Source: Streptomyces sp. NBC_01717 (GTDB lineage Bacteria > Actinomycetota > Actinomycetes > Streptomycetales > Streptomycetaceae). Taken from it: a stretch of DNA of 64,000 nucleotides. Under the pieces are notes generated by a model that saw only the letters and a program-made list of their open reading frames with translations, was not told where the DNA came from and ran no database searches. The stretch is from positions 992,001 to 1,056,000 of the forward strand of contig NZ_CP109178.1 in assembly GCF_036248255.1 (NCBI RefSeq), in the 5' to 3' direction. Within the stretch, counting starts at the first letter, position 1. The number at the start of each line of letters is the position of its first letter. The position numbers and the translations under genes were made by a program. Below, in pieces: positions 45,448 to 54,114 of the stretch.

Positions 45448-45835
45448 GTGATCCCCCCATGGGATGCGCGTGGTCCTGAGCCCGCTCACGCTATGCCTGT
45501 CCGGAATGTTCTGGCCCGCTCGTGTCGGATTTGTGACAGGCCTGCTCGGCCGCGCCCTGGACGCGGCCGTGGGGGTGAAGGATGCCTGGCTCGCGCGAGC
45601 GCTCCCTCGTAGCGGCCACCAGGGCGAGATCGGCTGGACGCCGATGCGGCGCCCCTGCTCGTCGGGCAGGTGGCCCGTACTCCCCCCGGCCCGGTCGGGC
45701 TGGACTTCGGCGGTCCGGTGCCACTGGTCCTGATTTTCAGTGGCGTGGATCATCCAGCCCTGTTTCCCGTGGCAGGCCTCCTCGCCTGCGGCGAAAATGG
45801 TGGTCGGAAGGCAAATGAGGAGGTTGGCATCCGGT
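45448..45835. other. 388-base divergent intergenic stretch
   Basis: Lies between the start of the membrane protein and the permease-phosphatase fusion. A minus-strand frame here has protein-like stretches (IFAAGEEACHGKQGWMIHA) but no start, stop or known domain. It may be a relic or chance. The promoters of both genes should be here; no operator stands out. Confidence 0.3.
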
Positions 45836-48493
45836 GTGAAGCACTCCCGTAGCCCTGGCGCGTCCGACGCGCCGCTCGCACTCGACTCAGGCGCGGGTAG
45901 AAAAGGGCTCAAGTCCGGTGCCCTGGGACTGCTCTCCTCCGTTGCCATCGGCTTGGCGTCCACCGCCCCGGCGTACAGCCTCGCGGCCACGCTGGGCCTC
46001 ATCGTGGCGGGGGTCGGACTGCAGGCCCCGATCATCACGATGCTGGCCTTCGTCCCGATGCTGCTGATCGCGTACGCCTACAAGGAACTCAACGCGAGCA
46101 ACGCCGATTGCGGGACCACCTTCACCTGGGCGACCCGTGCGTTCGGCCCGCGCACCGGCTGGATGGGCGGCTGGGGCATCATCGTCGCCGACATCATCGT
46201 CATGGCGAACCTCGCCGAGATCGCCGGCATCTACGGCTTCCGGCTCCTGGGCTACGACTCCCTCACGGAAAGCAGGGTGTGGACCACCCTCGCGGGTGTC
46301 ATCTGGATCGGCGTCATGACCGCGATCTGCTACGTCGGCATCGAGATCTCGGCCGCCGTTCAGCGGTGGCTCCTGTTCATCGAGGTGGCCGTACTGTTGC
46401 TGTTCGCCGTCACCGCCCTGGTCAAGGTGTACACCGGCAACCCCGAGATGGCGATCCACGTCTCCGCCTCCTGGTTCAACCCCCTCCACGTGCCATCGGC
46501 CGAGGCGCTGACGGCGGGCATCCTCGCCGCCGTCTTCATCTACTGGGGCTGGGACACCGCCGTCACGGTCAACGAGGAGACCGCGGACAGCACGCGCATC
46601 CCCGGACGCGCCGCGGTCATCTCCGTCGTGCTGCTGCTGGTCATCTACGCCCTGGTCGCCACCTCGGCGCAGGCCTTCGCGGGAGTCGGCTCCGCCGGGA
46701 TCGGGCTCGGCAACAGGGACAACGCGGGCGACGTGCTCTCGGGTCTGGGCGACGCCGTCTTCGGCAGCCACGGGGCGGGGCCCTTCTTCTCCAAGCTGCT
46801 GATCCTCATGGTGCTGACCTCCGCGGTGGCCTCCGCCCAGACCACCATCCTCCCTATGGCCCGGACCGTCTTCTCCATGGCCGCGCACAAGGCCGTCCCC
46901 TCCCGGTTCGCCCGACTGCACCGCAGATTCCTCACCCCGACCTGGTCGACGGTCTCCTTGGGCCTGGCCTCCGTCGGTTTCCTCGTCCTGCTGACGGCGA
47001 TCAGCGACAACGTCCTCGCCGACTCCATCGAGTCGGTCGGGCTCGCGATCACGTTCTACTACGGCCTCACCGGCTTCGCCTGTGTCTGGTATTTCCGCAG
47101 GGTGCTCACCCGCAGCCGCAGGGACTTCCTGTTCAAGGGCCTGCTGCCGGGTCTGGGCGCGCTGACGATGCTCTTCCTCTTCTGTTACGCCGCCTTCGTC
47201 GTCTACGCCGACCCCCGCTACGGTGCGACCTCCATCGACCTGCCGTTCATCGGACTGACGGGCGGGGTCACTGTCGTGGGCCTCGGGGCCCTGCTGCTCG
47301 GCGTCGTGCTGATGCTGGTCGTCACGCGCGAGCACGCCGCAGCCCTCCGGCTTCAACGCAGTCTGCTTCCTCACCGGCTGCCGCAGCCGACCGCTGTCGA
47401 GATGGCGAGCCGCTATGTGCCCGCCGACAGCCGGTCCGGGGTGGGCGGTGACTGGTTCGACGTCATCCCACTGTCGGGAACGCGTGTCGGCCTGGTCGTC
47501 GGGGAGGTGATCGGCCACGGGCTGCTCGCCGCCGCCACCATGGGGCGCCTGCGCACCGGCGTACGCGTCCTCGCCCGCCTGGACCTCGACCCGGACGAGC
47601 TCCTCTCGCGTCTGGACGACGTGGTCGGGCAGACCGCCAAGGAGCGGGCGGCCGTTCATGGTGCCGGCGGCGCGGGACCCCGGGAGGACGACGCCCTGGG
47701 GGTGACGTGCCTGTACGCGGTGTACGACCCGGTGTCGGGACAGTGCAGCATGGCGCGCGCCGGCGATTCGATGGCCGCGGTCGTCCTGTCGGACAGCGGC
47801 GTCGCCACCTACCCGGATCTCCCGCCGGGCCCTCCGCTGGGACTGGGTGGTCTGCCCTACGAGACCATGGGATTCCAGCTGCCGCAGGGCAGCCTTGTCG
47901 CCCTCTTCACCGACGGGCTCGTCCAGGCGGCCGATGCCGACATCGACGTCGGACTCGGTCTGCTCACCGAAGCCCTCGCCCAGCACCGGCGTCCCTTGGA
48001 AGAACTCTGTGACCGCGCAGTCGCGACCCTGGTGCCAGGGCCGGCGAACGACGACGCGGTCCTGCTCCTCGTACGCACACGGATGCTCGACGAACACCAG
48101 GTGGCTACGTGGGAGCTGACCGCGGAGGCGGCGATGGTCGGCAAGGCCCGCGCCGTGACCACGGCGCAACTCGGAACATGGGGGCTGGACGAGCTGTCGT
48201 TCTCCACCGAACTCATCGTCAGTGAGCTGGTCACCAACGCCATCCGCTATGCCGCCGGCCCGATCCACGTCCGGCTCATCCGCGACGAAACCCTGATCTG
48301 CGAGGTCGCCGACACCGGGCACACCTCACCCCATCTGCGCCATGCCGCCGCTGACGACGAGAGCGGCCGTGGCCTGTTCATCGTCGCCCAGATGGCGCAG
48401 CAGTGGGGCACGCGCTACACGCCCACCGGCAAGACCATTTGGGTGGAGCAGGCCCTGCCGGCGGACCCTGCCGTCGGTGAAGCTCCCTCTTAG
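45836..48493 (+). CDS. amino-acid permease fused to a SpoIIE/PP2C phosphatase and an anti-sigma-type HATPase domain
   Basis: 885 aa, one uninterrupted frame. Residues ~20-495 are an APC-family permease (GLASTAPAYSLAATLGLIVA, FIYWGWDTAVTVNEETADST). At ~498 it passes into a PP2C/SpoIIE domain starting AAALRLQRSLLPHRLPQ, with GGDWFDVIP, VGEVIGHG, FTDGLVQ and NDDAVLLLV. Residues ~755-885 form an RsbW-like HATPase domain (ELIVSELVTNAIRYA, ESGRGLFIVAQMA). The Asp of the usual VGDVxGHG is Glu. It would couple amino-acid transport at the membrane to (de)phosphorylation of anti-sigma partners. GTG at 45836 has GAGGAGG 12 bases before; an ATG at 45815 or 45797 is possible. Confidence 0.88.
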   Translation: MKHSRSPGASDAPLALDSGAGRKGLKSGALGLLSSVAIGLASTAPAYSLAATLGLIVAGVGLQAPIITMLAFVPMLLIAYAYKELNASNADCGTTFTWATRAFGPRTGWMGGWGIIVADIIVMANLAEIAGIYGFRLLGYDSLTESRVWTTLAGVIWIGVMTAICYVGIEISAAVQRWLLFIEVAVLLLFAVTALVKVYTGNPEMAIHVSASWFNPLHVPSAEALTAGILAAVFIYWGWDTAVTVNEETADSTRIPGRAAVISVVLLLVIYALVATSAQAFAGVGSAGIGLGNRDNAGDVLSGLGDAVFGSHGAGPFFSKLLILMVLTSAVASAQTTILPMARTVFSMAAHKAVPSRFARLHRRFLTPTWSTVSLGLASVGFLVLLTAISDNVLADSIESVGLAITFYYGLTGFACVWYFRRVLTRSRRDFLFKGLLPGLGALTMLFLFCYAAFVVYADPRYGATSIDLPFIGLTGGVTVVGLGALLLGVVLMLVVTREHAAALRLQRSLLPHRLPQPTAVEMASRYVPADSRSGVGGDWFDVIPLSGTRVGLVVGEVIGHGLLAAATMGRLRTGVRVLARLDLDPDELLSRLDDVVGQTAKERAAVHGAGGAGPREDDALGVTCLYAVYDPVSGQCSMARAGDSMAAVVLSDSGVATYPDLPPGPPLGLGGLPYETMGFQLPQGSLVALFTDGLVQAADADIDVGLGLLTEALAQHRRPLEELCDRAVATLVPGPANDDAVLLLVRTRMLDEHQVATWELTAEAAMVGKARAVTTAQLGTWGLDELSFSTELIVSELVTNAIRYAAGPIHVRLIRDETLICEVADTGHTSPHLRHAAADDESGRGLFIVAQMAQQWGTRYTPTGKTIWVEQALPADPAVGEAPS

Positions 48494-48622: not shown

Positions 48623-48895
48623 ATGACCGACACCTTCGAGCACACCCCTCAGATCTGGAACGCCGCCCAGCTGCGCGATGCCCTCAAGGATCTCCCCGAT
48701 GACGCGCCCATCCATATCGGGGTGGCGAGCGACCCCGGTGACTTCGATGGATACCGCGGCTTCGTCCTCGTGGACGCACATCAGGTGGAGAACTGGTGGC
48801 CGGCCACCTCCACCGCGCCGGAACGCACCGAGACGGAGCAGGCGCTGACACTGTTCGCCGACTGGGAGCCGGACAGGTACGACCTTCTCGACTGA
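48623..48895 (+). CDS. DUF6225-type small protein
   Basis: 90 aa, acidic, soluble. MTDTFEHTPQIWNAAQLRDA followed by LKDLPDDAPIHIGVASDPGD and ALTLFADWEPDRYDLLD resembles the small DUF6225-like proteins of Streptomyces, of unknown function. The ATG at 48623 gives the typical start. Lies 130 bases after the permease-phosphatase fusion, so co-transcription is possible. Confidence 0.7.
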   Translation: MTDTFEHTPQIWNAAQLRDALKDLPDDAPIHIGVASDPGDFDGYRGFVLVDAHQVENWWPATSTAPERTETEQALTLFADWEPDRYDLLD

Positions 48896-52097: not shown

Positions 52098-53984
52098 TCA
52101 GGGCCGCCTCGCACAGGTTTTCTCCCCCGCCACCGCTTGCAGCACCAGTACCGAGAGGTCGTCCTCGACGGGCCCCGTCCCGAAGTCGTGCGCCGCCCGT
52201 CGTACGTGCTCCGCAAGTGCCTTCGCGCTCAGCCCCATGCCCTGCCTGAGTACATCGGCCAGACCGTCATTGTCGTCCAACTGCCAGTTGCCGCAGCGGC
52301 GTTCGGTGACGCCGTCGGTAACGCACAACAGCGTCTCACCGGGCGCGAGGTCGAAGCTGGCGGCCCGGAATTCGGCGCCCTCATCGATGCCGAGCAGCAT
52401 CTGGGGTACGGAGGCCGGTTCCACCCTGCCGTCGGCGCACAGATGCAGCGGCGGAGGATGGCCCGCAGTGGCGACCGTGCAGTGGGCCCCGGGCACGCCC
52501 GGGTCGACCGTCAGCTCCCCGTACAGCAGGCTCAGGAAGCGGGAGCCGGTCTGCTCGGCACCGAGCGCGAATGCCTCGGCGCTCTCTTCCGCCATGGCGA
52601 CGTTCAGCCGGCCGAGCACCGACTCGACGCCATGGCCCTCGCGCGCCAGCAGCCTCACCAGGTGGCGGGCCAGGCCGGTGACGGACATCGCCTCCGGGTC
52701 CTTTCCCTGCACGTCCCCGAGCAGGAAGCACCAGTGGTTCTCGCCCCTCGGGAAGATGTCGTAGAAGTCGCCGCCTACGGTCTGCCCCTCGCCGTGCGGC
52801 TCGTAGACGATCGCCGTATCGACGCCGACGATCCTGGCCAGCGCCGCCGGCAGCTGCCTGCGCTGGAGCGCGGCGCTGATCCTGCGCTGCCGGGTGTACT
52901 GGCGAGCGGTGTACACGGCCTGCGCGACTCTGCGGGCCACATCCTGGACCATCCGCACCACGGTGTCGGTCATCTGCGGCTGCCCTGCCCGGCCGAGCAG
53001 CAGTATCCCCTGGTCGGAATCGCGGGCGATGAGTGGGAAGGCGAACGCCGACCCGCCCTCATGGGCGACGCCGGCACTCTCCGGCCACGGCCAGGGCGTA
53101 CCCCCGATGCGGACCGCGGAAGGCGGCGGAATCCGTTCCAGTTCCTCGCGCAGCGGAGTGATGCGCTGCTCGTCGGCATGCCAGACCCGGGACAGTTGCA
53201 GGCCCATCCCGGGCATGTTCAGCCAGATGCCGCACCAGTCCGCGAGCCGGGGTACGAGCATCTGGGCCGCGAGCGCGGTGACCATGGCCTCGTCGAGCTG
53301 GCCCGCCAGGAGTTCGCTGGTCTCGGCGAGGAACGACGGGCCGCCACGGTCGGACCACTCGGCGGCGTACCCCTGGGCATGCGCCGGATGTACGGATGGC
53401 CCTGCGTCATAGGGCTGCGCGTCGCTGTGGCGCCCGGTGCTGCCGGGCTTGGTGACACCGGGCCGGGAGGCGGCCGAATCTGTCGCGGCAGTGTCTCCCT
53501 CCGCGGCCTCCAGCCGGAACCAGACCCTCTTCTCCGCCCGCCGGTAGGTCACGCCCCAGGACTCCGAGAGTGCGCTCACCAGCTGGAGGCCGTAGCCGGG
53601 CTCGTCACGCTTGGTGTCCGCTCCACCGCGTACCCCCCTGGAGGGGTGGCGGTCCGCGACCTCCACGACGACACCCAACCGGGTGGCCGGGTCCCGCTCC
53701 AGGCGGCAGACCACGTCGATATCGGTGCCTGCGTACATGACGGCGTTGGTGACCAGCTCGCTGACAAGCAGGACGGCATCGTCGACGAGCTCCTCGGGGA
53801 TCGCCGTCGGCGCAGGGGCCGCGCCCTCATCGGAAGCCGTATCGGCGTCGGACGCCCCGTCCCCATTCAGGGGCGCCGTCCACCCCTGGAGCGCCGCACA
53901 CACGAATTCCCGCGCCCGGGCGGCTGCCAGCTGATTCGCCTGCAACCCCTTCCTGGACACGGATTCGGTCGTGTGTACGGACAA
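52098..53984 (-). CDS. SpoIIE-type PP2C phosphatase with N-terminal HATPase domain
   Basis: 628 aa, soluble. Residues ~10-160 form an anti-sigma-like ATPase (ELVDDAVLLVSELVTNAVMY; EPGYGLQLVSALSESWG). A GAF-like region (~220-380) follows, then PP2C/SpoIIE (~390-615) with GGDFYDIFP, LGDVQGK, CVTDGVTE and EDDLSVLVL. It combines kinase-like and phosphatase activity on anti-anti-sigma proteins. The TTG at 53984 has GGGGGA five bases upstream; the frame extends to 54014. Divergent from the poly-HAMP kinase, so both may share control. Confidence 0.87.
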   Translation of the reverse strand: MSVHTTESVSRKGLQANQLAAARAREFVCAALQGWTAPLNGDGASDADTASDEGAAPAPTAIPEELVDDAVLLVSELVTNAVMYAGTDIDVVCRLERDPATRLGVVVEVADRHPSRGVRGGADTKRDEPGYGLQLVSALSESWGVTYRRAEKRVWFRLEAAEGDTAATDSAASRPGVTKPGSTGRHSDAQPYDAGPSVHPAHAQGYAAEWSDRGGPSFLAETSELLAGQLDEAMVTALAAQMLVPRLADWCGIWLNMPGMGLQLSRVWHADEQRITPLREELERIPPPSAVRIGGTPWPWPESAGVAHEGGSAFAFPLIARDSDQGILLLGRAGQPQMTDTVVRMVQDVARRVAQAVYTARQYTRQRRISAALQRRQLPAALARIVGVDTAIVYEPHGEGQTVGGDFYDIFPRGENHWCFLLGDVQGKDPEAMSVTGLARHLVRLLAREGHGVESVLGRLNVAMAEESAEAFALGAEQTGSRFLSLLYGELTVDPGVPGAHCTVATAGHPPPLHLCADGRVEPASVPQMLLGIDEGAEFRAASFDLAPGETLLCVTDGVTERRCGNWQLDDNDGLADVLRQGMGLSAKALAEHVRRAAHDFGTGPVEDDLSVLVLQAVAGEKTCARRP

Positions 53985-54114
53985 CGGAATCCCCCTTCCC
54001 CCTGTATGTACCAATTACGCCTGGAAAGCACTATTTTCGTGCGCTTTATACTATGACATGCGTGACCAATGAACCTCTGGTGTGCACCAATGGATCTTGG
54101 GCGGAGAATGCTCC

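Follow-up and report, generated by a model that had tools for sequence, protein, structure and literature searches.

CbrA of Pseudomonas is a transceptor in which a histidine transporter and a histidine kinase form one protein (SLC5-STAC-PAS-histidine kinase; PMC13022988, PMC7096432), and in Ks-Amt5 an Amt transporter is fused to a histidine kinase, with coupling between ligand and kinase reported (PMC5764959; unless a main text is named, PMC numbers here and below stand for extracts of the articles concerned). These are the two systems whose logic is closest to that of a fusion gene at 45836..48493 on the forward strand of a 64,000-nucleotide stretch of Streptomyces sp. NBC_01717 (contig NZ_CP109178.1, positions 992,001 to 1,056,000; the whole stretch is called the window below). 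Its product joins an APC permease, a SpoIIE (PP2C) phosphatase domain and an RsbW-like ATPase, and with a transporter domain and a signalling enzyme in one chain it is a transceptor in the wide definition of the term. We think it probable, while keeping substantial doubt, that it acts as a membrane receptor in which an APC amino-acid/amine permease occupies the position that a PAS/GAF sensor has in Streptomyces SpoIIE-ATPase (RsbU-RsbW type) regulators. The fusion shares with CbrA an N-terminal nutrient (amino acid) transporter, and, as in Ks-Amt5, an uptake transporter would have been recruited as a sensory module. In contrast, CbrA has an SLC5 transporter with STAC and PAS domains before a histidine kinase/response regulator system, and Ks-Amt5 has an Amt transporter and a histidine kinase and belongs to an anammox bacterium, whereas the fusion has an APC permease and a predicted Ser/Thr partner-switching output. 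Its membrane part is AA_permease by Pfam, and the structural model leaves no room for a STAC-like domain between the last transmembrane helix and the linker that follows it.

Neither a transporter nor a fused anti-sigma kinase is known to be part of SpoIIE and RsbU of Bacillus subtilis or of RssB of Escherichia coli. In SpoIIE and RsbU the PP2C domain is controlled via linker and switch helices (PMC5468089, PMC12143880). Rv1364c of Mycobacterium tuberculosis (PAS-RsbU-RsbW-STAS; PDB 3ke6) is the best PDB match of the C-terminal part both by sequence and by Foldseek (root-mean-square deviation 10.5 over both domains) and has the same SpoIIE-ATPase order, but unlike the fusion it carries a soluble PAS sensor and a C-terminal anti-anti-sigma domain (PMC12143880). 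No amino-acid permease fused to SpoIIE (APC-SpoIIE-ATPase) was found described in the open-licence PMC literature, in agreement with the first-pass annotation, made from the sequence alone, which knew of no system with this layout. The words permease and transporter are absent from the main text of a survey of bacterial PP2C phosphatases (PMC12088040), and the extracts of PMC10717218 and PMC13118837 contain no description of an APC-SpoIIE-ATPase fusion.

The open frame spans 45740-48493 and, from a GTG start at 45836, encodes 885 amino acids (885 codons plus stop) without interruption by a stop codon; a putative ribosome-binding site, GAGGAGG, can be read off the sequence 12 nt upstream of the start (45817..45823; this and all other features of the gene lie on the forward strand). 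Three domains scored above the curated Pfam cut-offs: AA_permease at residues 39-456 (73.7 bits, cut-off 24.6), SpoIIE at residues 548-748 (146.6 bits, cut-off 25) and HATPase_c_2 at residues 762-870 (49.3 bits, cut-off 27.4), with a weaker match to HATPase_c at residues 793-870 (32.1 bits, cut-off 26.4). The union of the three in one stop-free polypeptide, as the first-pass annotation had read it, is thus borne out. The APC-fold permease occupies residues 30-496 (45923..47323) and ends in a transmembrane helix at 477-496; it is followed by a linker helix, residues 497-512 (TREHAAALRLQRSLLP; 47324..47371), by the SpoIIE/PP2C phosphatase domain, residues 513-750 (47372..48085), delimited by Pfam and by the Rv1364c and SpoIIE chains, and by an RsbW-like GHKL ATPase of the anti-sigma kinase type, residues 751-876 (48086..48463; Pfam). 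Third-position GC content is high both in the permease (0.93) and in the part C-terminal to the join (0.85). By fold matching, residues 20-512 share the APC/LeuT fold with ApcT, BasC/LAT and CAT, which carry no signalling domain, and KimA is also among the fold matches. No substrate could be assigned by homology, as NCBIfam permease models score far below their cut-offs and the solved relatives are distant (10-20% identity among the listed matches). Pfam found no STAS/anti-anti-sigma domain at the C-terminus, no phosphoacceptor-histidine domain among the matches of the protein, and no soluble PAS/GAF sensor ahead of the linker, where the permease stands instead.

The fusion is a genuine and inherited arrangement. 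The best 120 of 7837 hits, a set in which distant members are not represented, all carry the permease, SpoIIE and HATPase Pfam domains in proteins of 839-909 amino acids with 70-98% identity. Among 392 genomes of the same genus, a close permease match was present in 38 and continued through the join in 28 (31 loci), so that homologues spanning the junction, for which the first-pass annotation had proposed to search other Streptomyces, do exist; the three domains lie in one frame at 28 of 28 loci, counted as one locus per fusion genome, which leaves aside second copies in G755, G693 and G625. In G693 the two copies score equally and lie near both chromosome ends (C1:121929 and C1:10201042), perhaps within terminal inverted repeats. 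A scan of 297 genomes of the same family, overlapping the same-genus sample, gave 26 genomes from three genus codes with a match through the join (counted from match rows rather than checked domain by domain; that of G951 lies at a contig edge). Beyond the family, among 396 genomes across the phylum (E <= 1e-60), the only match crossing the join was the window's own.

In named genomes, the loci of the best 80 of 551 relatives comprised 33 fusions, one locus interrupted by N, and 46 permeases without an in-frame SpoIIE match. The fusion records are titled Streptomyces, Kitasatospora and Streptantibioticus, plus one Streptosporangium. Inspection by eye of four of the longer unfused frames (L190-L193) showed the frame ending within about 60 residues of the permease, without fusion, and by Pfam the long frames L161, L166 and L170 hold the permease only; the long unfused same-family frames G791 and G795 lie outside this inspection. 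Fusion and unfused relative coexist in some genomes (for example G434, G597, G800 and G959). The first-pass annotation had named a frameshift or assembly join, with no other genome carrying the fusion, as what would undo it. Dozens of separately assembled genomes carry it, which rules out such a join and leaves an artefact with next to no probability; the only interrupted case, L156 (S. lilacinus), was considered as a split gene and rejected, the break being a run of N in the assembly. Two records have unexpected titles that may reflect misnaming or transfer: L124, titled Streptosporangium nondiastaticum (Streptosporangiaceae according to NCBI), whose fusion groups with a same-genus sequence, and P0026, titled Saccharothrix sp. 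ST-888, among the listed fusion homologues. Most database names are 'amino acid permease' or 'SpoIIE family protein phosphatase', and some JGI entries read 'amino acid transporter/anti-sigma regulatory factor (Ser/Thr protein kinase)', so that automatic annotation has already seen both ends.

The fused proteins formed single clades at both ends. In a tree of 66 permease domains (L156 counted), chosen from the sequences at hand with two truncated ones omitted and others thinned, the fused permeases were one clade (Shimodaira-Hasegawa-like approximate likelihood ratio test, SH-aLRT, 100) adjoining unfused permeases of Kitasatospora and then of Streptacidiphilus. In a 51-row tree, 16 fused C-terminal modules were likewise one clade (SH-aLRT 100) among SpoIIE-ATPase paralogues from the genome of the window. 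A single joining of two families therefore accounts for the data, and the fusion arose once, as far as the trees show.

The place of this event can be read from the unfused relatives. In most cases unfused permeases match as far as residues 493-498 (499-505 in some, earlier in a few), and the best unfused SpoIIE matches of the own genome start mostly at 495-498 (some at 479-493), which bears out the joint that the first-pass annotation had set at TREHAAALRLQ. Paralogues (six compared, slightly variable) read '...NARRYTREHxxALTLQRSLLP' at the place where '...LMLVVTREHAAALRLQRSLLP' stands in the fusion. At the join (residues 495-497), the permease thus stands where a common Streptomyces SpoIIE-ATPase protein has its GAF/PAS sensor, while the linker helix of that protein is retained. 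In the AlphaFold2 model, helix 477-496 is followed after a one-residue break by helix 498-510, so that, as modelled, the last transmembrane helix takes the place of the last helix of the sensor.

The own genome makes clear which part of this architecture is new. The first-pass annotation had held that SpoIIE and ATPase domains are normally separate proteins; this is contradicted by the paralogues, as 35 of 39 (from 92 own-genome SpoIIE matches) carry both. Since their union is the rule among the paralogues examined, the novelty is the permease in place of a PAS/GAF sensor. The C-terminal module and linker are most closely related to Streptomyces PAS/GAF-SpoIIE-HATPase proteins: the nearest nine paralogues show 53-59% identity. 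In nine paralogues scanned with Pfam, the domain ahead of the linker is PAS, GAF or Cache in seven and DUF4118 in one, and one has no N-terminal family. A simple hydropathy scan gave four membrane helices at most in any of the 39. In L079 (G000 C2:28134-29309) a DUF4118 membrane domain, with four helices by hydropathy, leads straight into this linker and SpoIIE-ATPase module, and so forms a further membrane input to one and the same output. The own genome (L070-L108) encodes at least 35 SpoIIE-ATPase proteins against eight STAS matches, so either the substrates are few or the STAS model misses some.

In two Streptacidiphilus loci (L144, 8583-10340; L146, 8530-10350), the gene next downstream of the unfused permease, on the same strand, encodes PAS-SpoIIE but no ATPase domain; by first-start reading it begins 189 and 127 bases beyond the stop codon of the permease. 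With 36 and 32 SpoIIE matches in these genomes, the adjacency is unlikely to be due to chance; the two are sisters in the tree, so it counts as one event, and it gives a hint about the origin of the fusion. In L145, L151 and L155, from other Streptacidiphilus, a similar gene lies on the opposite strand near the unfused permease; that of L145 encodes PAS-GGDEF-EAL.

Within the permease part, 29 fusions retain 117 of the 136 columns that are conserved in 36 unfused relatives. Among those retained are the motifs of TM1 and TM6, by which the substrate site of APC transporters is lined. In the fusions, TM6 (F234, Y236-D240, N246-E248) is unchanged in 29 of 29 and TM1 (S42, P45-S48) nearly so. Comparison of the window gene with eight other fusions gave ratios of nonsynonymous to synonymous rates (dN/dS) of 0.17-0.45 over the three domains and of 0.17-0.35 for the permease, values in which dS is shaped by codon bias. 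The permease probably still binds its substrate.

The two C-terminal domains are conserved very differently. By alignment to the solved SpoIIE structure, D628, D746 and D795, the metal ligands of SpoIIE (PMC5468089), fall on residues 557, 693 and 739. The window protein has E557 (47504..47506) at the M2 ligand D628, D693 (47912..47914) and D739 (48050..48052), and thus departs from the strict PPM feature of Asp at all three; D539 of the GGD motif (47450..47452) aligns to SpoIIE residue 610, numbered by counting back from D628. Among the window protein and the best 120 homologues, column 557 holds D in 91, E in 22 and N in 8, column 693 D in 69, G in 39 and others in 13, and column 739 D in 52, E in 38, V in 30 and N in 1. 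Asp stands at all three in 24 of 121 and a carboxylate at all three in 52, the other 69 having lost one carboxylate or more; the Asp-Asp-Asp state needs at least six changes on the tree, so the metal-ligand states are clustered by descent. In contrast to these eroding ligands, the ATPase residues E797, N801, D826, G844 and G846 are invariant in 121 of 121, which makes the kinase/anti-sigma side the likelier obligatory output. Where the metal ligands are gone, a phosphatase output is hardly conceivable, and what the members have in common would then likely be a kinase/anti-sigma function. E. coli RssB, which is without phosphatase activity (PMC12143880), offers a parallel to these lost ligands.

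The first-pass annotation had noticed Glu in place of the first Asp and suggested a tuned activity. The substitution at the M2 ligand is real, but it is not special to this protein and belongs to a wider loss of metal ligands: Glu and Asn recur in column 557 and unfused paralogues also lose Asp, and private tuning was rejected on the distribution in that column. Glu at 557 could still bind metal, and for the window protein a reduced or altered phosphatase activity is more probable than a clear loss. Among the unfused own-genome paralogues at least one of the three metal Asp is gone in 15 of 39 (counted from rows), and the E, N, D, G and G residues are intact in all 35 that have the ATPase domain; these counts lend no support to the idea that ligand loss goes specifically with fusion.

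In the membrane-receptor mechanism that we favour, the observed architecture, its inheritance, the splice with retention of the linker and the conservation of the permease and ATPase sites would be extended by dimerisation, ligand control and a STAS partner. Ligand occupancy, or the inward or outward state of the permease, would shift the last transmembrane helix; the shifted helix would reorient paired linker helices, as in RsbU; and the reoriented linkers would set both enzyme activities, phosphatase and kinase, on a STAS anti-anti-sigma protein whose gene lies elsewhere. In PPM phosphatases of this type, linker helices pair and move switch helices (PMC12143880). A more specific form, which we advance only tentatively and would not yet bet on, is a partner-switching transceptor, which would be the first of its kind, whose permease reports amino-acid supply directly to the anti-sigma kinase via the last transmembrane helix. 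The PP2C domain would have decayed in many members from an enzyme to a part for transmission or docking, and sigma release would be set by nutrient occupancy without a soluble sensor.

Several observations weigh against a receptor. The fusion is carried by only 7-9% of genomes in the same-genus and same-family samples and is therefore dispensable. No conserved neighbour was found in 35 fusion loci (window and L156 included, genes predicted with a script of our own, contig ends truncating some loci), the top shared one occurring in 10 of 35, mostly from one subclade where placed in the tree; nor does a STAS gene lie near the fusion, the nearest of the eight STAS matches in the genome being about 0.7 Mb away. 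In TM1, T43 and A44, beside the site, vary in some fusions, and in TM8 T341 is replaced in nearly all fusions and T334 and the less conserved T345 vary or are replaced. Measured from the common node, the fused permeases evolve at roughly double the rate of unfused Kitasatospora permeases (medians of 0.44 in 30 rows and 0.20 in 4 rows); this would fit a permease that had turned from mere uptake to sensing, although relaxed constraint would look similar. The AlphaFold2 models, with a predicted template modelling score of 0.59 and a mean predicted local distance difference test score of 57 to 76 across five models, make domain placement unreliable. Finally, the activities of CbrA are not significantly affected by L-histidine (PMC7096432), so that fusion alone is no proof of ligand coupling.

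Faster evolution and the replaced TM8 threonines would also be expected if the permease were a mere membrane anchor placing the kinase/phosphatase without ligand control, and Bacillus SpoIIE likewise has a membrane part of 10 helices (PMC5468089, PMC12088040). We nevertheless regard an anchor as improbable: it would not need conserved sites, whereas the TM1 and TM6 site residues and most of the conserved positions are kept in the fusions and the permease dN/dS is low. These same substrate-site motifs would suit a coupling in the reverse direction, a working transporter whose SpoIIE-ATPase part senses ATP or a partner and gates uptake, and APC-fold transporters with a regulatory nucleotide exist, such as KimA with cyclic di-AMP. 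Yet the ancestry of the C-terminal module lies among signalling proteins that carry a sensor at the N-terminus and share its linker helix, the ATP site is that of an anti-sigma kinase, and a fused permease that evolves faster gives no sign of a stricter role in transport, so that this direction also seems unlikely. In CbrA, uptake reportedly does not depend on the kinase domain (PMC7096432). Least credible to us among the functional alternatives is a neutral fusion of two uncoupled activities on one chain. It would fit the minority of genomes with the gene and the variable neighbourhood, but the join persists in three genus codes, never split by a stop or frameshift at the examined loci, the splice retains the linker helix, and a SpoIIE gene adjoins the unfused permease in two Streptacidiphilus.

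Genomic context was set aside as a pointer to the ligand or the partner, no neighbour being shared beyond those 10 loci. A second SpoIIE regulator lies about 3.6 kb away in the window (52101-54014, reverse strand), with the domain order HATPase-GAF-SpoIIE, the reverse of that in the fusion; among the 35 compared loci its relatives occur near the fusion only in L110 and L123. Directly downstream of the fusion, at 48626-48892 on the forward strand, lies a gene for a DUF6225 protein, which is outside the most shared neighbours of fusion loci.

If the receptor reading is true, the fusion would extend transporter-based signalling, which in the transporter-kinase fusions found in print feeds histidine kinases, to Ser/Thr partner switching, and would make nutrient sensing, transport and sigma control testable together in a single protein. 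The genome encodes dozens of SpoIIE-ATPase regulators, and the input domain of this one comes from a family with solved structures. Unfused relatives of the permease still exist and allow direct comparison with the fusion, and the family itself supplies natural variants with and without the phosphatase metal ligands.

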